Below are positions 21,148-39,783 of a stretch of 39,783 nucleotides of DNA, piece by piece. Below the pieces are notes generated by a model, which did no database searches, was not told the origin of the DNA, and worked only from the letters and a program-made list of their open reading frames with translations. A program made the translations under genes and the position numbers. How positions within the stretch are numbered: the first letter of the stretch is position 1; every line of letters begins with the position of its first letter. The stretch is from a virus: IMG/VR virus record IMGVR_UViG_3300032144_000030, positions 1-39,783 of that record; one strand, 5' to 3'.

Positions 21148-21345
21148 ATGAGTAACGCAACTCCCGCCGAAAAGAAAACCCCGGAAGTATTGAGCGCCAG
21201 AATCTTGGACCTTGAGCCGTTGGTGGCCAAATGGATTGCGCAAAACCCGAACGTTGCGCCGTCGCATCTTGTGAGGGTTGGCTTGAAGATGGCTTTGCGA
21301 CCGCTGGCTGGCAAGCGGTTCGCTCATCTTGTGGAGGACAAATGA
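21148..21345 (+). CDS. Second RHH-like regulator (rightward)
   Basis: A 65-residue protein. After a charged N-terminus there is a strand (EVLSARILD), helix A (LEPLVAKWIAQNP), a turn (NVAPS) and helix B (HLVRVGLKMALRPLAGK), which fits a ribbon-helix-helix protein. The start codon lies about 11 bases after a promoter -10, so the message is nearly leaderless. It is divergent from the RHH gene at 20750, like the mnt/arc pair of phage P22. A strong ribosome site near its end serves the helicase gene. Confidence 0.55.
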   Translation: MSNATPAEKKTPEVLSARILDLEPLVAKWIAQNPNVAPSHLVRVGLKMALRPLAGKRFAHLVEDK

Positions 21346-22703
21346 CCGCCCTCACCCCACAAAAGGATTACGCTGCGTTCATTGCGAATAAAACGCACCT
21401 AAGCACGCGCTCTGGCTTTGAGCCGCTTTGGATGCCGAACTTCCTCTTTCCTTTCCAGCGCGCTTTAACGACGTGGGCAATTCAGAAGGGCCGCGCGGCA
21501 ATCTTCGCGGATTGTGGACTTGGCAAGACGCCGATGCAGCTTGTTTGGGCGCAGAACGTCGTTGAGAAAACATGCAAGCCGGTTCTGATTCTGACACCGC
21601 TTGCGGTCGGCGCGCAGACCGTGCGCGAGGCTGAGAAGTTCGGGATTGAAGCCAAGCAATCACGCGACGGCAAGGTTGCCGCGCCCATCACCATCACGAA
21701 CTACCAACAGCTTCACAAATTCAACTGGCAGGACTTTTCCGGCGCGGTCTGTGACGAGTCTGGAATCCTCAAAAACTTCGACGGCGCGATCAAAAGCCAG
21801 GTTGTTGCCTTCATGCGCAAGCTTCACTTCCGGCTGCTTTGCACGGCGACGGCCGCGCCGAACGATTACATCGAGCTCGGGAACTCAAGCGAGGCATTGG
21901 GGTATCTGCGCAGAGTGGAAATGATGGCGCACTTCTTCAACCACGATGGCGGAGACACGTCGAAATGGAGGCTCAAGAAACACGCCGCGAAGCATATTTT
22001 CTGGCAGTGGGTTTGCACTTGGGCGCGCGCGGTATGCAAGCCTTCAGATGTTGGATGTTGCGATGATGGCTACGCGCTCCCAGAACTAAAAACCATCGAG
22101 CACATTATCCGCGCCCGGTCTGCAAATCCAGAATACCTATTCGACATGCCTGCGGTCGGGTTGGATGAGCAGCGTAAAGAGCGCAGGCGCACAATTAACG
22201 AGCGATGCGAAATGGCTTCATCGCTCATTAACAACACAGGAAATCCGGCTGTCGCGTGGTGCCATCTCAACGAGGAAGGCCACCTGCTTGAAAAGTTGAT
22301 TCCGGGCGCGGTTGAGGTTGAGGGCAGCGACCCGGACGAGTTCAAGGAAGAAACCTTTGAAGCTTTTGCGCGTGGTGATATTCGCGTTCTGGTTTCCAAG
22401 CCGGTCATCGCGGGATTCGGATTGAACTGGCAACACTGCGCACACCAGACGTTTTTCCCGTCACACTCTTTCGAGCAATGGTATCAGGCTATTCGCCGGT
22501 CGTGGCGCTTCGGGCAAGCCAACCCAGTTCGCATTGATGTGGTTGCCAGTGAAGGTGAGGCGGGTGTTCTCGCCAACATGAACCGCAAAGCTGCACAGGC
22601 AAACCACATGTTTTCCAAGCTGGTTGAGTCCATCAACAACGAGCTTCACGTTCCAAAAGCTGCAACCCACAACACTGAACCGAAAATCCCATCATGGCTA
22701 TAA
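21342..22703 (+). CDS. SNF2-type DNA helicase/translocase
   Basis: A 453-residue protein. Helicase superfamily 2 motifs are visible: I FADCGLGKT (residues 54-62), II VCDESG (near 136), III LLCTATAAPND (near 166), and VI QAIRRSWRFGQANPV (near 381), the last typical of SNF2 proteins. They use ATP to move along duplex DNA. Phages often place such a gene next to a DNA methyltransferase, as here (10-base overlap with 22694). The start uses a strong Shine-Dalgarno (GGAGGA) and shares ATGA with 21148. Likely roles are replication, recombination or DNA modification support. Confidence 0.85.
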   Translation: MTALTPQKDYAAFIANKTHLSTRSGFEPLWMPNFLFPFQRALTTWAIQKGRAAIFADCGLGKTPMQLVWAQNVVEKTCKPVLILTPLAVGAQTVREAEKFGIEAKQSRDGKVAAPITITNYQQLHKFNWQDFSGAVCDESGILKNFDGAIKSQVVAFMRKLHFRLLCTATAAPNDYIELGNSSEALGYLRRVEMMAHFFNHDGGDTSKWRLKKHAAKHIFWQWVCTWARAVCKPSDVGCCDDGYALPELKTIEHIIRARSANPEYLFDMPAVGLDEQRKERRRTINERCEMASSLINNTGNPAVAWCHLNEEGHLLEKLIPGAVEVEGSDPDEFKEETFEAFARGDIRVLVSKPVIAGFGLNWQHCAHQTFFPSHSFEQWYQAIRRSWRFGQANPVRIDVVASEGEAGVLANMNRKAAQANHMFSKLVESINNELHVPKAATHNTEPKIPSWL

Positions 22704-23623
22704 TCCAGCAAACGATTACCAAGCAATGCGCGCTCTACAACGGTGACTGCGTCGAAGTGATGAAGTCGCTACCAGAATCCAGCGTTGACATGGCGCTGTT
22801 CTCGCCGCCGTTCGCGGACCTTTACTGCTACTCAGACAGCCCGATGGACTTGGGCAACTGTAAAAACTATGACGAGTTCTTTGTCCATTTCGCGTTCGTA
22901 GTTGAAGGGCTCACTCGCGTGGTGAAGCCGGGTCGCATGTGCGTTGTGCATTGCATGGACATTCCGGCGATGAAAGAACGCGATGGATTCATCGGTATCA
23001 AAGACTTCTCTGGCGACATTATTCGCATGTTTCAAAAGCGTGGGTTCATCTACCACTCGCGGCACACCATCTGGAAAGACCCGCTCATCGAGGCCACGCG
23101 AACAAAGGCTCTGGGTTTGATGCACAAGCAACTTCAGAAGGACAGCATTAAGTCTCGCGCTGGACTGCCTGACTACCTTCTTGGATTCCGCAACGCTGGC
23201 GAAAACGCTGTTCCGATTGCACACCCTGAAGGGCTCACATCGTATTGCGGAAGCGATGACCCATCGAAGGGAATTTCCGGCATCAAGAAGTCTCACAACA
23301 TCTGGCGCGCTTACGCATCCCCTGTATGGATGGATGTTCGGCAAACAAAAACCCTCAACGCTCGCGCAGCGCGTGAGGCCGACGACGAGAAACATCTATG
23401 CCCGCTCCAACTCGACGTGATCGAGCGCGCGTGCGTGCTTTGGTCAAACCCCGGAGAGGTTGTCTTAACCCCGTTCATGGGAGTTGGTAGCGAGGTTTAC
23501 GCGGCTGTGCTGAATGGACGCAAGGCGATTGGGGTGGAGTTGAAGACCGCATACTACAATCAGGCCGTGAGAAACCTTGCGTCCGTTGATGACGCAACCG
23601 TTATGGATCTTCTCCATGTCTAA
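22694..23623 (+). CDS. DNA methyltransferase (N4/N6, beta-type order)
   Basis: A 309-residue protein. The catalytic motif IV is S-P-P-F near residue 37 (ALFSPPFADLY) and the AdoMet motif I lies late, TPFMGVGSEVYAAVLNGRKA near 258, which is the beta-class order of amino-methyltransferases (adenine-N6 or cytosine-N4). The end GVELKTAYYNQAVRNL is typical of phage enzymes of this type. There is no restriction endonuclease beside it, so it probably protects phage DNA or regulates it. It overlaps the helicase gene by 10 bases. Confidence 0.85.
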   Translation: MAIIQQTITKQCALYNGDCVEVMKSLPESSVDMALFSPPFADLYCYSDSPMDLGNCKNYDEFFVHFAFVVEGLTRVVKPGRMCVVHCMDIPAMKERDGFIGIKDFSGDIIRMFQKRGFIYHSRHTIWKDPLIEATRTKALGLMHKQLQKDSIKSRAGLPDYLLGFRNAGENAVPIAHPEGLTSYCGSDDPSKGISGIKKSHNIWRAYASPVWMDVRQTKTLNARAAREADDEKHLCPLQLDVIERACVLWSNPGEVVLTPFMGVGSEVYAAVLNGRKAIGVELKTAYYNQAVRNLASVDDATVMDLLHV

Positions 23624-23987
23624 TCTCCCCTCAATCGAATCCATCCACTGGGACTTCAAGACCGATGCCATGCGCCGCATGGCCGTCGCGGTCTGCAAGC
23701 TGGCAATCTCCAAAGGGCCGGAAACATTCTCCGCAAACAATCTTCCAGCATTTGACCACGGCGGCAGCGGCGTGGCCGGCGTCATATTTCATCGTCTCGT
23801 GAGCGATGGGGTGTTGAGCCGGGTAATGTTTTACCACGGCGTGGCGGCTTTTCCTGTCGTCGTCCTGAATCCTGGCGGGAACAAAATCAGCGTTTACCGG
23901 CTGAAATCTTGTTCGCTGGCGCTGCGGTTGATTGAGCTTAACGGCGGTCAAGAGCCGCAAGTCAAGCAGGAGGAAATGGCGATATGA
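23616..23987 (+). CDS. Hypothetical protein
   Basis: A 123-residue protein. It has a winged-helix-like layout: helix (MRRMAVAVCKLAISKGPETF), NNLP turn, a helix (GVAGVIFHRLVSDGVLSRV) and a beta wing (YRLKSC), so it may bind DNA. No family is named. It is coupled at both ends, overlapping the methyltransferase by eight bases and the pentapeptide gene as ATGA. Confidence 0.6.
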   Translation: MSNLPSIESIHWDFKTDAMRRMAVAVCKLAISKGPETFSANNLPAFDHGGSGVAGVIFHRLVSDGVLSRVMFYHGVAAFPVVVLNPGGNKISVYRLKSCSLALRLIELNGGQEPQVKQEEMAI

Positions 23988-24721
23988 AAATCCAAATTAA
24001 AAGCAGATGGAGCGGGCACATAATTTTTGAAACGGACGCGGAGAGTTTGGGCGCGGCGATTTTGGTTGCGCTAAAAGCAAGCGCGGACCTGCGCGGCGCG
24101 GACCTTCGCTGCGCGAACCTGTGCGACGCGAACCTGCGCGGCGCGAACCTGTGCGACGCGAACCTGCGCGGCGCGGACCTTCGCTGCGCGGACCTGTGCA
24201 GCGCGGACCTTCACTGCGCGGACATGCACGGTGCGAACCTGCGCGGCGCGGACCTGCGCGGCGCGGACATGCGCGGTGCGGACCTGCGCGGCGCGGACCT
24301 GCGCGGCGCGTACATGCACGGTGCGAACCTGCGCGGTGCGGACCTTCACTGCGCGGACATGCACGGTGCGAACCTGCGCGGTGCGAAAAACGCAGAGCTT
24401 CCAATCGCCGCGACCCGCATCCTTCCTGACGGCGATTTAATCGGTTGGAAGAAATGCCGACATGGAGTGATTGTAAAACTGCTTGTTCCAGCAAAAGCAA
24501 AGCGCTCTCACGCTTTCGGGCGAAAGTGCAGGGCTGAGTTTGTGGAGGTTTTGGAAGTGATGGGGAAAGAAGGCATCAGCAGTTATGACCCTGACGTGAA
24601 ATACGTCGTCGGGGAAATTGTTAAGCCAAAAGAAAAGTTTTCAGAGGATTGGCAGGACGAGTGCGCGTCCGGGATTCACTTCTTCATCACGCGACTGGAA
24701 GCGGAGAATTACGCGCTATGA
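23984..24721 (+). CDS. Pentapeptide-repeat protein with DUF5758-like C-terminus
   Basis: A 245-residue protein. Residues 34-133 are twenty perfect pentapeptides A-(D/N)-L/M-x-x (for example ADLRG, ANLCD, ADMHG), making five coils of a right-handed beta-helix. The C-terminal domain ends with ECASGIHFFITRLEAENYAL, matching the DUF5758 domain often fused to such repeats in phages. Some pentapeptide proteins mimic DNA and protect or inhibit gyrase; this function is possible but untested for the fused family. It lies between the methyltransferase and Lar-like genes. Confidence 0.85.
   Translation: MKIQIKSRWSGHIIFETDAESLGAAILVALKASADLRGADLRCANLCDANLRGANLCDANLRGADLRCADLCSADLHCADMHGANLRGADLRGADMRGADLRGADLRGAYMHGANLRGADLHCADMHGANLRGAKNAELPIAATRILPDGDLIGWKKCRHGVIVKLLVPAKAKRSHAFGRKCRAEFVEVLEVMGKEGISSYDPDVKYVVGEIVKPKEKFSEDWQDECASGIHFFITRLEAENYAL
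24083..24382 (+). repeat. Twenty tandem 15-bp coding repeats
   Basis: The pentapeptides are encoded by 20 near-identical 15-bp units (consensus GCGGACCTGCGCGGC). Codon choice is almost fixed from unit to unit, which points to recent expansion or gene conversion rather than an old diverged array. All frames on both strands stay open here as a by-product. Confidence 0.9.
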
Positions 24722-28247: not shown

Positions 28248-28417
28248 AATCACACCTTCAACTGCTCCTGCGCGAGCTTGACCGGGCGGACCTCGAGGAC
28301 GCGGTGAAAGCAGTCATTCAACGCGAGATCGAGACGCTGCTGGGCCGTAATGCCCGCGAGATTTTGGAGTTGATTGAGGTGTCGGAGGAATTGGCAAAGG
28401 AAATAACAAAAACATGA
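28244..28417 (+). CDS. Small helical protein before the annealing gene
   Basis: A 57-residue, wholly helical, acidic protein (LRELDRADLEDAVKAVIQRE, then ILELIEVSEELAKEITKT) likely to form a coiled coil. It is coupled as ATGA at both ends, directly ahead of the RecT/Bet-type gene, so it could be a partner of the annealing protein. No family recognised. Confidence 0.55.
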   Translation: MKSHLQLLLRELDRADLEDAVKAVIQREIETLLGRNAREILELIEVSEELAKEITKT

Positions 28418-29241
28418 ACACGAACACAGCAATAGTTAAGAACACACCACAAACAAAGCCATCAGCCTTAAACCTGATGGCTTCAAGGTTGAGCGTCGAG
28501 CCGGCAAAGCTTCTCGACACACTCAAGAGCACGGTCTTTCAGAAGGCAACCAACGAGGAAATGCTGGCCCTCGTCACGGTCGCCAATGAATACGACCTGA
28601 ATCCATTCCTGAAGGAGATTTACGCATTCCCCGCGAAGGGCGGCGGCATCGTGCCGATTGTCTCTGTTGATGGTTGGAACAAGATGCTGATTCGCCAGCC
28701 CGCGTTCGACGGCATCAAGTTCGCGTTTGGCTACAAGGAGGACGGCAGCCTCGACAGTTGCACGGCGACCATCTTCATCAAGGACCGCAGCCATCCGGTT
28801 GAAATCACCGAATACTTCGACGAGTGCAAACGGAACACCGATCCTTGGAACAACATGCCGCGACGGATGCTGCGCAACCGAACGCTGTGTCAGGCGTCCC
28901 GTGTTGCCTTTGGATTCTCCGGCATCCACAACGACGACGAGGCGCAGTCGTTCATTGATGTGTCGTCGTCTCCCGTGCCGTCAGAACCGCCACCGAAGAT
29001 GATTGCGGTCGCAAGTGATACCAGGCCGTCCGCGCGCGCAGAGCTTGAGGCCGTCGTGCTCGGCGCAGGCTTCACGTTTGAGCAGCTTCGCGCGTTCGGT
29101 GAGGCTTCAGGCAACATCAAGGACGCGAGCAGCGTCGGCGCGTTCTCTGAAATCTCCGAGGATGACGCCAAGCGGCTCGTCCGCGCGAAGGTTGGGCTTC
29201 TCAATTCACTGAAGTTGCAGACGGAAGGGGGTGAGAAGTGA
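28414..29241 (+). CDS. RecT/Bet-type single-strand annealing protein
   Basis: A 275-residue protein. The stretch from EYDLNPFLKEIYAFP (near residue 58) through VPIVSVDGWNKMLIRQP, then FGYKEDGSLDSCTATIFIKD, and WNNMPRRMLRNRTLCQASRV to FGFSGIHNDDEA (near 173), is the conserved core of the Bet/RecT family. These anneal single strands in homologous recombination and during phage replication. The C-terminal 80 residues (helical, ending EKTEGGEK-like) likely bind SSB or partners. No exonuclease is recognisable nearby, but several small unknown genes follow. Start shares ATGA with 28244. Confidence 0.9.
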   Translation: MNTNTAIVKNTPQTKPSALNLMASRLSVEPAKLLDTLKSTVFQKATNEEMLALVTVANEYDLNPFLKEIYAFPAKGGGIVPIVSVDGWNKMLIRQPAFDGIKFAFGYKEDGSLDSCTATIFIKDRSHPVEITEYFDECKRNTDPWNNMPRRMLRNRTLCQASRVAFGFSGIHNDDEAQSFIDVSSSPVPSEPPPKMIAVASDTRPSARAELEAVVLGAGFTFEQLRAFGEASGNIKDASSVGAFSEISEDDAKRLVRAKVGLLNSLKLQTEGGEK

Positions 29242-30123: not shown

Positions 30124-31058
30124 CCAACTCCCTATCCCTCGTCTCCGTCACAATCGAGCCCGGCCAACTTCCTGTCTTTTCGCTGAACGCTGGCGCGTTT
30201 GACCTGAAAGAGCAGGCGCTAACCCGTGGCTGTCTTATTGGCAAAGTCACCAACACGACCGAAAACGTCACCGCTGTCGAAGCTCAGAAGGAACTTAAGC
30301 GCGTCGCGCAGATGTTCGAGAAGGAGCGCAAGAAGCTCAAAGAACCGATCATCGAAGCGGGCCGCAAGCTCGACCGGCTTGTGCAGACTGAAGTTGACGA
30401 GGTTGAGCGCGAGCTTGGGCGAATCTCCGCGCTCACGTCGGAGTTTCAGCAAGCTGAAGCTCGCCGCATCCGCGAGGAGGAGGAGGCGCAACGGCGGGAA
30501 CTGGCGAGGATTGAGGCGGAGAAACAGGCGGAGTTTCAGCGAATCGCACGAGAGCAGGCTGAGCGCGATCTGGCTGCGCGCAGGGCGCAGGAGGAAATTG
30601 AGCGCAAGGCACGCGATGAGCGCGAAGCCGCCGCTAAAGCTGCCAGAGACGCCACAAACAAAGCGCAGCGGGAGGCAGCGGAAAAGATGCTTGAAGCCGC
30701 AGCGAAGGCCGAGGAAGCCAACCGCATCGAACGCGAGCGGTTGGAAAAAGAATCAGCCGCCCGCGCCGCAGAGGAAATGAGGCTTGCCAATGAGCGCGCC
30801 GCCGCAGCATCAATCATCGAAGCCAAGCCAATCGAATCATCCCGCGTCTCTGGGCAGGTTGTGAAAACCGAATGGGACATTCAAATCGTCAACCCTTACG
30901 ACCTCGCCAAGTTTCACCCCGACTGCGTGAAGATTGAGCCGATGCTGACGCCTATCAAGGCCGCATTAAATGAGGGCCGCGAGCTTCGCGGGGTGAAGGC
31001 GGTTAAGCGCATCTCCGCTGATGTGCGGGTGAGAACGCAGCATGTCATTGAGGTGTGA
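30120..31058 (+). CDS. Coiled-coil phage recombination-associated protein
   Basis: A 312-residue protein. An N-terminal domain (about 100 residues, with VTAVEAQKELKRVAQMFEKE) is followed by a very long Arg/Glu/Ala coiled coil (about residues 95-235) and a C-terminal domain with VKTEWDIQIVNPYDLAKFHP and LRGVKAVKRISADVRV. The last is a recurring domain in proteins next to phage annealing genes (W-x-x-x-I-x-x-P-x-x-x-P-x-x-L, then G-V-x-x-x-x-x). Likely a scaffold or DNA-binding accessory of recombination, function not established. Confidence 0.6.
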   Translation: MTNSLSLVSVTIEPGQLPVFSLNAGAFDLKEQALTRGCLIGKVTNTTENVTAVEAQKELKRVAQMFEKERKKLKEPIIEAGRKLDRLVQTEVDEVERELGRISALTSEFQQAEARRIREEEEAQRRELARIEAEKQAEFQRIAREQAERDLAARRAQEEIERKARDEREAAAKAARDATNKAQREAAEKMLEAAAKAEEANRIERERLEKESAARAAEEMRLANERAAAASIIEAKPIESSRVSGQVVKTEWDIQIVNPYDLAKFHPDCVKIEPMLTPIKAALNEGRELRGVKAVKRISADVRVRTQHVIEV

Positions 31059-31059
31059 A

Positions 31060-31419
31060 ATGTTTAAGCTGACTGACTTCAATGCCAAAATTCAAAGCCA
31101 GATCGCAGCACAACTTGACGCTGACCGTCTTCGTGCCGTGGAAACCAAAAAGCCCAAACCGCCTGTTGCGCAAACATTGGAGTGTGGTGAGCGCCAACGC
31201 CAAATTCGCAAAGGCAAGCTGGTTGTTGTCATTGATCTCATCGCCGCACGCCACCGATTGCTTGATTGCGATAACAACGTTGGTTCATTCAAACCACTCC
31301 GAGACGCCATCGCTGAATCCATCGGCATAGATGACGGAGATTCACGCATTAAATGGAGCTACGGGCAAATCCAGACGCAGGGTGAGGAGGGGGTGATTGT
31401 GAGAGTGAGTGTTTTATGA
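31060..31419 (+). CDS. RusA-like Holliday-junction resolvase
   Basis: A 119-residue protein. The middle (LLDCDNNVGSFKPLRDAIAE, then SIGIDDGDSRIKWSYGQI) has the RusA arrangement: D-x-D-N near 73, a lysine eight or so residues on, and DD near 98 that bind the metal. RusA cuts Holliday junctions to resolve recombination intermediates. The N-terminal part is short and atypical, so it may be a relative rather than RusA itself. ATG 31060 is preferred over 31042 because AGGTG lies six bases before it. Confidence 0.6.
   Translation: MFKLTDFNAKIQSQIAAQLDADRLRAVETKKPKPPVAQTLECGERQRQIRKGKLVVVIDLIAARHRLLDCDNNVGSFKPLRDAIAESIGIDDGDSRIKWSYGQIQTQGEEGVIVRVSVL
31405..31419 (+). repeat. 15-bp direct repeat, copy 1 of 2
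   Basis: GTGAGTGTTTTATGA at 31405-31419 recurs exactly at 31604-31618. Each copy contains the start of a gene (31416 and 31615) and its ribosome-site region, so a gene of 199 bases lies between the copies. This suggests insertion or deletion by short homology. Confidence 0.8.
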
Positions 31420-31607
31420 CAACGCCACCAAAACCAAAGAAGCGGAAACCGGCAGAGGCTGCCCCGTGCGGGTCTTTTTATTGGCCGCTCTGGAAACACA
31501 TGGCTGACAATCACTCGCTCACACTGCTGGATTCTGAGTGCGAGGACATTATTCAAGTCGCCAGCAAAATCTTAAAGCGGGTGAGCCGTATCCGAAAATT
31601 CAGGTGA
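31416..31607 (+). CDS. Small protein before the radical SAM gene
   Basis: A 63-residue protein: basic Pro/Lys-rich N-terminus (TTPPKPKKRKPAEAAPCGSF), then FYWPLWKHM and a helical end (CEDIIQVASKILKRVSRIRK). It does not look like a typical radical-SAM peptide precursor, though a Cys and aromatic run are present. It lies between two 15-bp repeats and might have arrived with the radical SAM gene. No family recognised. Confidence 0.5.
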   Translation: MTTPPKPKKRKPAEAAPCGSFYWPLWKHMADNHSLTLLDSECEDIIQVASKILKRVSRIRKFR

Positions 31608-31618
31608 GTGTTTTATGA
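31604..31618 (+). repeat. 15-bp direct repeat, copy 2 of 2
   Basis: Exact repeat of 31405-31419, at the start of the radical SAM gene. The repeat supplies GGTGAG as a ribosome site before ATG 31615. Confidence 0.8.
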
Positions 31619-32568
31619 AGCCCGCCTTTTTCCTCAACATTGATATTCTCGGCGTCTGCAATCTCGCCTGCCCGACCTGCCCGCATGGGAATGATGATCG
31701 CACCTTGACGCCGCGAGGGATGATGGACCTTGAATTGTTTGAGGCGATTCTAGACAAGGCGCAGCGTGAATGCACGGTCACGGGCGTTGGTTTGTTTTCC
31801 TGGACTGAGCCTTTGTTGCATCCACACTGCGCTCTCTTTGTCACGGCCTGCAAGCTGCGCGGCATTCCCTGCCATCTCTCAACCAACCTGAACAACATCC
31901 GCAACCTGGATGCAACGCTGCGGGCTGGGCCGGACACGTTGCGTGTGTCGGTGAGTGGATCCACGAATGAAACTTATCAACAAACGCACGCGCGCGGCGA
32001 CGTGGAGCGGGTGAAGGACAATCTCGTTTTGCTTTGGCAGAGCGTGCCGGTGCGCCAAGGGACGATCCAGGTGACAGTTTTTTGGCATCGCTACAAGCAC
32101 AACGCGAACGAGGAGGATTTCATGCGGGAGTTTGCGACCGACCTTGGATTCAAATTTGAGACGTGCGAGGCGTATTTAATGCCGTTGGAAACTGTGTTGC
32201 GGCGGTGGAGTGGTGAGCGGGCGATGTTGGTGATTGAGGAACTGCTTTGGACGCCGTTACAGGTGGCGAAGCAACAGTGCGAACCGCACGCCGGCATGCC
32301 ATGTCGTTTGCAAACGCGCGAGATAACCATAGACGCCAACGGTGGGGTGCATCTGTGTTGCGCTTTATATGATCCCAAGCTTTCGCTCATTGGAAGGTTT
32401 CTCGACATGACGTTGGCTGACATTCAGGCGCGGAAGATTATGAGCGAGCAATGCTCAACCTGCCTCAAGGCTGGTGGGCATGTTTACGCAACGTTCGGTT
32501 GGAAGCGTCGGGAGCGATGGCAGCAAAAGCTGGGCAATTTACGTGCGAAAATCAGAAGTTGGATGTGA
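31615..32568 (+). CDS. Radical SAM enzyme with SPASM-like C-terminus
   Basis: A 317-residue protein. The cluster motif C15-x3-C19-x2-C22 (VCNLACPTCPHG) binds the 4Fe-4S that splits S-adenosylmethionine. A TIM-barrel-like body follows (GVGLFSWTEPLLHPH, then LSTNLNNI, LRVSVSGSTNETY), with conserved spacing for this superfamily. The end has further cysteines, a C-R motif near 230, L-C-C, and C-S-T-C, as in SPASM domains that bind an extra cluster; its W-T-E-P-L motif fits radical SAM enzymes that act on peptides or sugars. No substrate gene is obvious. The ribosome site is GGTGAG. Why a phage carries it is open; modification of host peptide, tail fibre or nucleotide are all possible. Confidence 0.85.
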   Translation: MKPAFFLNIDILGVCNLACPTCPHGNDDRTLTPRGMMDLELFEAILDKAQRECTVTGVGLFSWTEPLLHPHCALFVTACKLRGIPCHLSTNLNNIRNLDATLRAGPDTLRVSVSGSTNETYQQTHARGDVERVKDNLVLLWQSVPVRQGTIQVTVFWHRYKHNANEEDFMREFATDLGFKFETCEAYLMPLETVLRRWSGERAMLVIEELLWTPLQVAKQQCEPHAGMPCRLQTREITIDANGGVHLCCALYDPKLSLIGRFLDMTLADIQARKIMSEQCSTCLKAGGHVYATFGWKRRERWQQKLGNLRAKIRSWM

Positions 32569-32573
32569 AAACT

Positions 32574-33305
32574 ATGGCGAAACCTAATGCCTACATGAAA
32601 ATCTATTGGGGTGATCTGCTCAAAGACACACCACACCTCGACGCTGAGGGGTTCGGCTCGTATGTGCTTCTTTTGGGCGCTTATTGGTGTAGGGGTGGCC
32701 CACTTCCCGACGATGACCAATTCCTTCGCAATGTCGCGCGCTGCCCTACCGAACATTGGATGCGAATGAAGGGCAGGTTAGCTGAGTTCTTTCATGTTGA
32801 GGCTGGCCTGTGGAAACATAAACGGGTTGAGAAGGAGCTTGCCGCAGCGGAGGAGGAATATCGCCTGCAATGCGAGCGGACAAAATCCGCAACCGAGGCA
32901 AGACAACGTAACGTTGAACGTAACGACCAACGTAACGTTGACGTAACGTCCACCGTTACGAAAGACGTAACGACTATCGTAACGATTACCCAATCAGAAT
33001 CAGAATCAGAATCAGAATCAAAGTCAGAATCAAAGTCAGAATCAGAACTCGATAAAGCCGACAAAGCTTCCGGTTCGACAAAGCCGACAAAGCTCTCTGC
33101 GAGGCAAAGGGAGGCGGCAAGGCAGGCTGAGGGTGCGCTTAAGGGTGAATGGGTCAACGATGCAGGGAAGTGGGTTAATCGAATCAAGCGAGACGCAGGC
33201 AAGGTCGAACGCGTGATGAATGAGGTTTGTGATGCGATCAAAGCAGGACGCATAGCTGGCACGCCAGCGGCGTATGCGGAGGATTGCTGGAAGAGGTTCA
33301 CATGA
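32574..33305 (+). CDS. DUF1376 (YdaU-like) replication protein
   Basis: A 243-residue protein. The N-terminal 90 residues match DUF1376: MKIYWGDLLKDTPHLDAEGF, then YVLLLGAYWCRGGPLPDDD and WMRMKGRLAEFF. Such proteins take the place of replication initiators in phages and prophages. The middle is a low-complexity linker (V-T repeats and a Ser-Glu/Lys run) that overlies a DNA iteron array; the C-terminal 70 residues are helical (AKLSARQREAARQAEGA-like). GTG 32565, overlapping the previous stop as GTGA, is a possible start three codons earlier. Likely phage O-type initiator binding within its own gene. Confidence 0.8.
   Translation: MAKPNAYMKIYWGDLLKDTPHLDAEGFGSYVLLLGAYWCRGGPLPDDDQFLRNVARCPTEHWMRMKGRLAEFFHVEAGLWKHKRVEKELAAAEEEYRLQCERTKSATEARQRNVERNDQRNVDVTSTVTKDVTTIVTITQSESESESESKSESKSESELDKADKASGSTKPTKLSARQREAARQAEGALKGEWVNDAGKWVNRIKRDAGKVERVMNEVCDAIKAGRIAGTPAAYAEDCWKRFT
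32907..32984. other. Iteron array, probable replication origin
   Basis: Seven copies of CGTAACG at 32907, 32919, 32931, 32942, 32954 (inverted, CGTTACG), 32966 and 32978, spaced 12, 12, 11, 12, 12 and 12 bases. The first three are read in frame as Arg-Asn, the later direct copies in a shifted frame as Val-Thr, so the DNA motif is kept rather than the protein. Iterons inside an initiator gene followed by a simple repeat tract (32991-33050) match the layout of the lambda-type origin within gene O. Confidence 0.8.
32991..33050. repeat. Hexamer AATCAG-type tract, possible unwinding element
   Basis: About ten units of AATCAG/AAGTCAG-like sequence run directly after the iterons and encode Ser-Glu/Lys repeats. 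The tract is richer in A and T than the flanks. In lambda-like origins an AT-rich region next to the iterons melts first, so this is a candidate unwinding element. Confidence 0.55.
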
Positions 33306-35769: not shown

Positions 35770-35975
35770 GCGATGAGCGTTTTTGTTTTTGTGAAGCCTG
35801 CGGGCAGCTAATCCCTATTCCTAAAATCAAAACCGTTCACCTGCTTTGCTGTGCGTGCAACCTTCAACCAAGGCAATGGCCGGAAAACCCAAAAACAAAG
35901 CCAGCAACCTTCCGTGAGTTGCTTGGACTTAGAGAAGACCCGAGAAGTCGAATGACTGGAGAAACATGGTCATGA
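35766..35975 (+). CDS. Small zinc-ribbon protein
   Basis: A 69-residue protein with C-x-x-C pairs (CEACG near 10 and CCACN near 29), followed by a short basic part (RELLGLREDPRSRM). Zinc ribbons in this position may bind DNA or a partner; the function is unknown. It overlaps terL and the LuxR-type gene as ATGA on each side. Confidence 0.65.
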   Translation: MSDERFCFCEACGQLIPIPKIKTVHLLCCACNLQPRQWPENPKTKPATFRELLGLREDPRSRMTGETWS

Positions 35976-36160
35976 TAAAATCCCTATCCCCTCGGCAGCG
36001 CGAAATTCTGCGCCTCGTCGCCTTCGGTAAATCAGACAAGGAGATTGCGGATGTTCTGGCGATTGGGTGCGGAACTGTGGACAAGCACATGCGGACGATC
36101 AAGGGTCGGCTGCGCGCTCGCTCGCGATCACACGCGGTTTACTTGGCGTTCTGCCGTTAG
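35972..36160 (+). CDS. LuxR/GerE-type HTH protein
   Basis: A 62-residue protein that is almost only a LuxR-type DNA-binding domain: SLSPRQREILRLVAFGKSDK, EIADVLAIGCGTVDKHMRTI, then KGRLRARSRSHAV. The T-V-x-x-H-x-x-x-I recognition helix is well kept. No receiver or sensory domain is present. The start at 35972 overlaps the previous stop as ATGA; ATG 35966 is a longer option. A palindrome lies 51 bases after its stop, so it may control the capsid genes. Confidence 0.85.
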   Translation: MIKSLSPRQREILRLVAFGKSDKEIADVLAIGCGTVDKHMRTIKGRLRARSRSHAVYLAFCR

Positions 36161-38082: not shown

Positions 38083-39783
38083 AAACTTTCAACAAGATCA
38101 TCTCCAAAGCCATCCCTTTTATCGGCGGGAAAATCGAGATCACCTTCAACAAGGAGGATGCCACGCCGGTTTCGCTGATGATCTATGACGACATCGGCAA
38201 AGACCCCTGGACGGGTGAAGGCTTCGCCGCGAAAGACCTCGCCTCCGCGCTCTCGGAAGTTTCCAACAAGAAACGCGAGTTGAAGATTCACATCAACTCG
38301 CGCGGCGGCGACGTGAATGAAGGCAAGGCCATTCGTTCCATGTTGGAAGACTGGGAAGGCAAGATCGTCAACATCATCGACGGCGTAGCCGCTTCAACCG
38401 CGTCCTGGATGATTCCCGCCGACGAGACGCACGCCCGCAGCCATTCCCAAATCTTCATTCATAAGTCATGGGCCGTTGTAGTTGGCAACGCCGACGACAT
38501 GACCAAGGCGACCGAGATGTTGAACATCACCGATGGCCAGATCGCCGACATCTACGCGAAGAAAACCGGCAAGCCCCGCGATGAAATGCTCGCGTTGATG
38601 GCTGCCGAAACCCTGCTCACCGGCGATGCCGCCAAGGACCTCGGACTGGTGGACAAGGTGATTGACGGCAAGGCCGTTCACAATTTCAGCACAGCGGAAA
38701 TCAGCAACATGAAGCAGAAGCTGGCCGCGCTGAACTCCTCAAAATTTACGGCAGCAACCGGCAACGAGGACCCCTCAAAGCCAAAGACGCCTATCACGCC
38801 GCAAGCTGCCAACCTTTCCGCTCCCTCGCAGGGCGCGGAGGAACCAAAAACCCAAAACCCGCAGAACATCATGAACAAAACTGAAATGCTCGCCCTGCTC
38901 AACAAGTGGGGCATCCAGCCACCGGCTGACGCGACCGATGAGGCGATTAAAACCCTCGTCCAAAACGGACCTCCGACGGTCACTGCGAACACGCAGCCCG
39001 CGCCCGCCGCGAACACCGTCACGGCTAATTCCGAACTCGCCGCCATCAAAGCGCAGTTGAAAGCGGAGAAGGACGCCCGCATCACGGACAAGTTCAATGC
39101 CATCGCCGCGACCCGCCCGACGGTTGCGACCAATCGCGAAGCCTTCCTCGCCAAGTGCCTGGTGGACGATTCCATGCTCGCCGTTTACAGCGAGTTCCCG
39201 GAGACGGCTGCCCCGCTGAACTCCCCGCGCGGGCGCGTGCAGGTCGGCGCTGAGAACATCATCGAGCGCGCGAACAAGATCGAGAACGTCGCGGATCGTT
39301 ACAAGTTCCGCGTGGCGAACTACGCCGAGTTGAACCAGGCGTATCTGAATCCGCGCAACGCGAACACCACGGACAGCGCGCTCGTCACCGACATGCTCCT
39401 CGATGGCGCGACGACCGTCCTCCAGAACCGGCTCGCCCCGTTGCGGGCCTTCAGCAAGGAAGTCTCCATCGACCGCATCAAGCCGAAGGCGGTTTTACAG
39501 CATCGCCAGATCACCGCCGGCGGAACGGCGCAGAGCAATGCGACCTCGTTTGAGGACACGACCAACTTCGTCGGCACGGAAGCCAACATCCCAATCACCA
39601 TCGCGCAACTCACGTCTGGTGGTCACATCACGAACGCTGAACGCCAGAACGGCGTGACGATGGATCAATGGGTGCAGATCAAGACGGCGGAAATCTCTGA
39701 CAAGATCATGGCTGCGGTTGCCGCTGTGATTCTGGAAGGCACTTACACCGCCACGCCGGTTACTTCGGCGGCGGCAGCATTCG
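38079..39783 (+). CDS. ClpP-like protease fused to major capsid protein
   Basis: The frame runs to the window edge and joins 1-555: 710 residues in total. Residues 30-190 are a ClpP/SppA-like head protease: INSRGGDVNEG (72-82), the nucleophile in VAAS106TAS, and H128 in FIHKSW. Residues from about 265 on are scaffold-like helices (RITDKFNAIAATRPTV) and then an HK97-type capsid domain (ENVADRYKFRVANYAELNQA). An in-frame ATG at 38871 could start the capsid part alone. Fused protease-capsid genes are known but uncommon. The protease would cut the scaffold region during head maturation. Shares ATGA with the portal gene. Confidence 0.85.
   Translation, partial: MKTFNKIISKAIPFIGGKIEITFNKEDATPVSLMIYDDIGKDPWTGEGFAAKDLASALSEVSNKKRELKIHINSRGGDVNEGKAIRSMLEDWEGKIVNIIDGVAASTASWMIPADETHARSHSQIFIHKSWAVVVGNADDMTKATEMLNITDGQIADIYAKKTGKPRDEMLALMAAETLLTGDAAKDLGLVDKVIDGKAVHNFSTAEISNMKQKLAALNSSKFTAATGNEDPSKPKTPITPQAANLSAPSQGAEEPKTQNPQNIMNKTEMLALLNKWGIQPPADATDEAIKTLVQNGPPTVTANTQPAPAANTVTANSELAAIKAQLKAEKDARITDKFNAIAATRPTVATNREAFLAKCLVDDSMLAVYSEFPETAAPLNSPRGRVQVGAENIIERANKIENVADRYKFRVANYAELNQAYLNPRNANTTDSALVTDMLLDGATTVLQNRLAPLRAFSKEVSIDRIKPKAVLQHRQITAGGTAQSNATSFEDTTNFVGTEANIPITIAQLTSGGHITNAERQNGVTMDQWVQIKTAEISDKIMAAVAAVILEGTYTATPVTSAAAAF
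39657..39783. repeat. 127-bp terminal direct repeat (copy 2)
   Basis: Identical to bases 1-127; see that entry. It lies in the middle of the capsid coding region, so no biological end is expected here. Confidence 0.95.

Follow-up and report, generated by a model that had tools for sequence, protein, structure and literature searches.

Phages often carry radical SAM genes that have no assigned job, and the locus described here raises the question of what such an enzyme could do for a phage that carries a single copy. The window, by which we mean the whole stretch of 39,783 nucleotides that was analyzed, is the virus contig IMGVR_UViG_3300032144_000030. An initial annotation had described its radical SAM gene as encoding a SPASM-type enzyme that changes peptides or similar substrates, a function held to be unusual in a phage. 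The answer depends on what kind of radical SAM enzyme this is, where its relatives occur, and which substrate their surroundings suggest.

The gene and its setting

The two ends of the window form a perfect 127-b terminal direct repeat (positions 1–127 and 39657–39783), which indicates that the contig probably closes as a complete circular phage genome of ~39.66 kb (~39,656 bp). The phage is a tailed phage, encoding terminase, portal, and head-protease genes; named relatives of its large terminase are weak (20.8% to Verrucomicrobia phage P8625). The order on the + strand is a RecT/Bet-like gene, small unknown ORFs, the radical SAM gene, a DUF1376/primosomal-like gene, the small and large terminase genes, the portal gene, and the head-protease gene. 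The features that concern us are as follows.

28414..29241, + strand: RecT/Bet-like annealing protein, upstream in the gene run of the radical SAM gene
31042..31419, + strand: 125-aa ORF, earlier labelled resolvase (no Pfam match at E ≤ 0.01; weak phage matches)
31416..31607, + strand: 63-aa ORF, ending 7 nt before the radical SAM start (candidate peptide substrate, without support)
31602..31608, + strand: ribosome-binding-like AGGTGAG, 6 nt ahead of the radical SAM ATG (from the sequence)
31615..32568, + strand: Twitch-type radical SAM enzyme, 317 aa (Pfam Radical_SAM E 1.2e-9; AlphaFold2 pLDDT 94.6; 36/36 conserved columns)
31657..31680, + strand: CxxxCxxC codons (C15, C19, C22) for the predicted SAM-cleaving [4Fe-4S] cluster (invariant in 74/74 aligned sequences; role from superfamily knowledge)
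32302..32463, + strand: Twitch region, with C230, β-hairpin 236–246, C248, helix 267–276, C280, and C283 (invariance; secondary structure of the model; BtrN/SkfB layout)
32574..33305, + strand: DUF1376/primosomal-like replication protein, 5 nt past the radical SAM end (Pfam DUF1376; PHROGs primosomal)

The gene had been placed between a resolvase and a replication gene. The latter neighbor holds, as the DUF1376/primosomal-like protein, whose start is better set at 32574, so that the two genes do not overlap; the resolvase label is only putative, as Pfam gives nothing for that ORF at E ≤ 0.01 and its matches, to unnamed phage proteins, are weak. The window has exactly two copies of a 14-mer, GTGAGTGTTTTATG, that spans the start codon and the ribosome-binding region: one at 31405–31418, ahead of the 63-aa ORF, and one at 31604–31617, ahead of the radical SAM gene. 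Possibly, this leader was copied when the radical SAM gene was inserted. The codon usage of the gene lies at the low end of the range of 17 compared phage genes, yet inside it, so that a recent arrival is not demonstrated.

Several other elements of the genome may be recorded here. A tiny LuxR/GerE-type DNA-binding protein is encoded at 35966–36160, between the large terminase and portal genes, and has a relative in a contig (L004) found through its related terminase. A pentapeptide-repeat protein with a DUF5758 tail is encoded at 23984–24721; pentapeptide proteins can act as DNA mimics. At 21231–23623 lies a helicase gene and, after it, one for an N6/N4 DNA methylase. The window has no match in Rfam and none in a tRNA search.

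A radical SAM/Twitch enzyme

The ORF at 31615–32568 is an intact radical SAM gene, as first described. Its 317-aa product scores 39 bits with Pfam Radical_SAM (PF04055; E 1.2e-9), above the 29.5-bit cut-off, and its AlphaFold2 model (mean pLDDT 94.6, pTM 0.90) aligns best with solved radical SAM structures. The CxxxCxxC motif noted earlier at residues 15–22 is confirmed by an alignment, A2, of the window protein with 64 of 79 genomic and 9 of 21 viral loci: C15, C19, and C22, together with C230, C248, and C280, are present in all 74 sequences, and C283 is present in 73, the exception being one gap. Loss of the cluster cysteines, which the initial annotation had named as evidence against itself, is not seen in the window protein. 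Moreover, at each of the 36 columns with ≥90% conservation among its 73 relatives, the window protein has the conserved residue, which argues against gene decay. The gene is real and looks functional.

The assignment to the SPASM class needs correction. SPASM is a seven-cysteine motif, CX9-15GX4C-gap-CX2CX5CX3C-gap-C, with two auxiliary clusters (PMC6231123). The window protein contains C230-X12-G243-X4-C248 and C280-X2-C283; position 289 is His, and no Cys follows 283. The later cysteines that had prompted the label are therefore there, but the protein has just four of the seven SPASM cysteines and scores 20.7 bits against the Pfam SPASM cut-off of 21.5, and we rejected a full SPASM enzyme. 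Twitch is a truncated SPASM with one auxiliary cluster, recognized by a Cys on either side of a β-hairpin and two Cys after the next helix. In the predicted model, strands at 236–239 and 244–246 lie between C230 and C248, and a helix at 267–276 precedes C280 and C283. The four cysteines thus indicate a Twitch-type (half-SPASM) protein with one predicted auxiliary cluster, laid out as in BtrN, and the window protein is almost certainly a radical SAM/Twitch enzyme. Among NCBIfam models there are 12 hits at E ≤ 1, none at its curated cut-off; the window protein is covered by no NCBIfam equivalog, and the comparison defines a Twitch family with invariant cysteines.

It is less clear from the fold what such an enzyme would act upon. 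By VIA-align, where rows no more than 1 Z unit apart count as tied, the closest structures include SuiB (Z 19.8), BlsE (19.5), MoaA (19.0), anSME (18.9), SkfB (18.8), DesII (18.3), and BtrN (18.1), with viperins (~16–17) and SpeY (~13.5) at lower scores. BlsE, DesII, and SpeY act on sugar or nucleoside compounds. The peptide enzymes SuiB and SkfB are tied with MoaA near the top, and the fold therefore does not choose the substrate.

Cellular relatives and their sugar genes

The family is large and has no name: when one genome was scanned for each species, 450 of 521 candidates were stretches encoding a member, and 79 distinct genomic loci were kept. The members at these loci, together with two plasmid relatives, are 26–41% identical to the window protein and have all the invariant cysteines; 34 of the 79 cell members have an N-terminal extension of at least 80 aa. 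The best plasmid relatives, in Methylocystis sp. MJC1 (36%) and Deltaproteobacteria Smac51 (33%), both sit among polysaccharide genes, including those for glycosyltransferases, O-antigen ligase, rfb functions, and perosamine synthetase. The Smac51 plasmid (CP026658.1; L086) carries several N-terminally extended family paralogues, five ORFs in L086, inside a sugar cluster.

This setting recurs among the genomic loci. A family-2 glycosyltransferase (GT2) lies within 10 kb of the radical SAM gene in at least 13 of 22 genomes versus 2.0 expected, and a DegT aminotransferase within 10 kb in at least 7 of 40 versus 0.9 expected, although these expectations assume independent placement whereas sugar genes cluster, which makes the P values too small and the comparison optimistic. 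The genomes were chosen from the 79 with the members nearest to the window protein first. A Pfam tally of 97 neighbor proteins, called with a simple ORF caller at 18 loci near the window protein (4 of the 22 chosen were dropped because the gene was not recovered), is led by other radical SAM proteins (7), GT2 (6), DegT (5), methyltransferase (5), and GDP-mannose dehydratase (4). A home-made GT2 profile found a matching ORF in only 30 of the 79 genomic stretches, in 0 of 14 viral stretches, and none in the window. In two members, radical SAM and GT2 domains are fused within single ORFs (L073:239-3649 and L075:7890-12857). A third candidate fusion, L041/G025, was suggested by coordinates and not confirmed by the profile check.

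From these gene neighborhoods, the family appears to be tied to glycan assembly, in the surface-polysaccharide and nucleotide-sugar loci of bacteria. A limited literature search found no paper on the family in polysaccharide loci.

Family members in other phages

Other phage-borne members came to light through the alignment of the family. Searched by tblastn with the window protein, 50,697 phage records gave no match at E ≤ 1e-5 and five at E ≤ 1 (best E 3e-3), and single-protein scans of viral contigs gave none; an alignment-based scan of IMG/VR found at least 21 viral loci. Ten of these (L092–L094 and L096–L102) are near relatives with a common gene order, and the nine that were placed in the tree form one clade. 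L102 is a 6.9-kb fragment.

The surroundings of the radical SAM gene in this clade are again those of sugar chemistry. A Methyltransf_14 sugar C-methyltransferase is encoded in eight of the ten records (all except L093 and L102), a Methyltransf_24 protein adjoins the radical SAM gene in L096, and L101 has an RmlD-like gene. A further gene family, c2, is present in nine loci (L093, L094, and L096–L102), where it lies between terminase-like and portal-like genes and is often duplicated (e.g. L096:4959-5660 and L096:6135-6842). Neither Pfam nor PHROGs names it in the members checked, and its model (pLDDT 91.7) has a GT-A fold, the 50 matches listed being glycosyltransferases or glycan synthases (Z 12.4–14.4). 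The radical SAM gene of this clade thus belongs to a sugar cassette with a GT-A-fold enzyme and a C-methyltransferase. In the L096 contig, the genes resembling terminase and portal received no name from PHROGs or tblastn, so that the phage nature of the clade is taken from the IMG/VR label and our reading of the sequences. One viral member stands elsewhere: in the region L095:7815-10140, a lone phage radical SAM gene and a thymidylate synthase homologue are separated by 0.3 kb, the radical SAM gene being the upstream one, and L095 has no GT2 or Methyltransf_14 match.

A tree of all 79 genomic loci, 13 of the 21 viral loci, and 5 plasmid proteins puts the window protein within a mostly cellular group (SH-aLRT 94), separate from the phage clade; an AU test did not reject one clade of the window and nine phage rows (p 0.625), that tree being 7 log units better. 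The window protein is a new branch among phage-borne radical SAM enzymes. When 51 window proteins were compared with six terminase-related loci, the viral stretches, and the whole of L095, the radical SAM gene was the sole gene in common with the radical SAM phages, except for a weak DNA-methylase match in L100; the phage stretches other than L095 were partial in this comparison. Conversely, the radical SAM gene is missing from all six contigs with a related terminase, though most of these are fragments. A weak match in the terminase relatives L007/L008 (E 3.4e-4) is an ORF without CxxxCxxC, a protein of another kind. Since the window phage has no detectable glycosyltransferase and shares little except this gene with other radical SAM phages, the gene is lone cargo in a recombination/replication gene run, and it is most simply read as horizontally moving cargo.

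Substrate and reaction

The neighborhoods and fusions suggest a sugar substrate, and for the window protein we regard one of sugar type as likely on the strength of these gene associations. Two further substrates deserve consideration. The enzyme might modify DNA or a nucleotide, for example as a step toward a hypermodified base that shields the phage DNA. Radical SAM steps occur in phage thymidine hypermodification, the gene sits in the RecT–DUF1376 run, and the L095 member adjoins a thymidylate synthase homologue; our literature search on hypermodification found no paper. Against such a role, the cell relatives adjoin sugar genes, and the 20 Pfam families recognized in the 53 ORFs of the window, a genome that looks complete, include neither a thymidylate synthase nor a nucleotide kinase nor a queuosine gene. 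The initial annotation had set the protein outside the known nucleotide families such as QueE, and this survives: the 12 NCBIfam hits at E ≤ 1 include no QueE model. QueE itself was rejected on this ground and because QueC, QueD, and FolE are likewise missing from the 20 Pfam families. We consider DNA or nucleotide modification unlikely.

A substrate considered at the outset was a peptide or protein, whether a RiPP-like product or a phage or host protein, with the 63-aa ORF 7 nt upstream as its possible source. SuiB and SkfB, both peptide maturases, are among the closest folds by Z, and the NCBIfam StsB sactipeptide model matches at E 2.1e-7, although its 30 bits are far below the cut-off of 625. 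Yet the protein opens with the radical SAM core, and without an N-terminal extension there is no room for a peptide-recognition domain; a comparison with 111 other loci gives no relative of the 63-aa ORF, and its phage hits are at chance level, so that this nearest candidate for a co-occurring peptide gene found no support; and no conserved partner gene appears in the compared viral stretches. On these grounds, we rejected a RiPP maturase acting on the 63-aa ORF, and peptide modification more broadly, including that of an atypical precursor encoded elsewhere, seems rather improbable. The surroundings of the relatives favor sugars. A viperin-like nucleotide synthesis or the maturation of a metal cofactor is very improbable. 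The PADLOC pVip match (E 9.7e-4, 16.7 bits) covers the common core only, as do the other scores in this direction, and the NCBIfam tungsten-cofactor maturase, at E 5.5e-11, reaches 42 bits against a cut-off of 380. Viperins align at Z ~16–17; to our knowledge, auxiliary-cluster cysteines are not a viperin feature, and their invariance in this family speaks against such an enzyme. DNA modification and peptide modification are thus weaker rivals than a sugar substrate.

On the sugar reading, the chemistry may be sketched as follows. In the superfamily, SAM is cleaved at the CxxxCxxC cluster, and the resulting 5'-deoxyadenosyl radical abstracts a substrate hydrogen. Here, a [4Fe-4S] cluster on C15/C19/C22 would cleave SAM, the 5'-deoxyadenosyl radical would pull a hydrogen from the substrate, and the radical so formed on the substrate would pass an electron to the auxiliary cluster on C230/C248/C280/C283, in line with the proposal for BtrN. 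Such a four-cysteine cluster suggests oxidation as in BtrN, and oxidation of a sugar C-OH would be the leading candidate, with epimerization or deoxygenation as the alternatives; by this analogy, the assignment of oxidation specifically is tentative. A direct search of the window found no GT2, and Pfam recognized no sugar gene among its 53 ORFs, so that the sugar link of the window protein is one of kinship only, at 26–39% identity. Because the phage has no detectable glycosyltransferase, the substrate would be a host-made sugar linked to a nucleotide, lipid, or polymer, and the outcome a changed host-surface or virion glycan.

The best reading is that the lone phage Twitch enzyme probably oxidizes or epimerizes a host-made sugar during infection and so alters surface or virion glycans. 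A broader picture would be that a phage without a glycosyltransferase uses nothing but radical chemistry to rewrite the surface polysaccharide of its host or the glycan of its own virions, and that separate phage lineages took up this family, in some cases as a single gene and in others along with an entire sugar cassette; we offer this as speculative. If true, glycan rewriting might block a second phage or keep progeny off debris.

Comparison with known systems

The nearest described analogue is BtrN, the 2-deoxy-scyllo-inosamine dehydrogenase of the butirosin pathway. It is a cyclitol dehydrogenase whose four-cysteine auxiliary cluster is the proposed electron acceptor in a two-electron oxidation (PMC9012708). 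The window protein and BtrN share a radical SAM core and a Twitch domain with four cysteines in equal order around the β-hairpin and helix. BtrN aligns with the window model over 223 residues (Z 18.1, rmsd 3.4, 14% identity), and its profile matches approximately the first 80 residues at E 3.5e-7. The window protein differs in having an extra C-terminal helix (295–316), and Pfam reveals no aminocyclitol pathway in the window phage. Ligand layout and modeled fold agree with a putative BtrN-type dehydrogenase, an enzyme that oxidizes a C-OH of a sugar or cyclitol with the help of a fully ligated auxiliary cluster. SpeY, of the spectinomycin pathway, is also a named Twitch radical SAM dehydrogenase (Z ~13.5), at 15–16% identity and in another pathway.

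The radical SAM proteins of polysaccharide loci (the MJC1 and Smac51 plasmids and L013–L091) are of the same family as the window protein, with the cysteines kept; they are often amid sugar genes and many are N-terminally extended, whereas the window copy is short and alone. The phage clade (L092–L094 and L096–L102) has the cysteine set of the window protein (8 of the 10 are in A2, with one gap at C283) and is 27–44% identical to it in the best segments, but sits in a sugar cassette, unlike the window copy.

Radical SAM cargo in phages has been described before, and the view that this is not a usual phage function needs revision. At E ≤ 0.001, BFVD gives 59 structural matches to the window protein, and the best 50 of these are mostly phage proteins named radical SAM or Fe-S. 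The 2010 report on the Campylobacter phages CP220 and CPt10 counts 11 and 12 radical SAM proteins, respectively, which its authors described as highly unusual and judged likely non-essential (PMC2853527). These are 21–30% identical to the window protein and are present in 11–12 copies in large genomes, versus one in the window. In Tasman Sea phages, radical SAM genes are described as prevalent, together with RmlD and glycosyltransferases (PMC7150976). Radical SAM enzymes in phages are thus already in print, and the sugar lead for this family is better than usual: the neighborhoods, the fusions, and the cassette of the second phage clade turn a vague "radical SAM in phage" into a checkable claim about phage-altered glycans.
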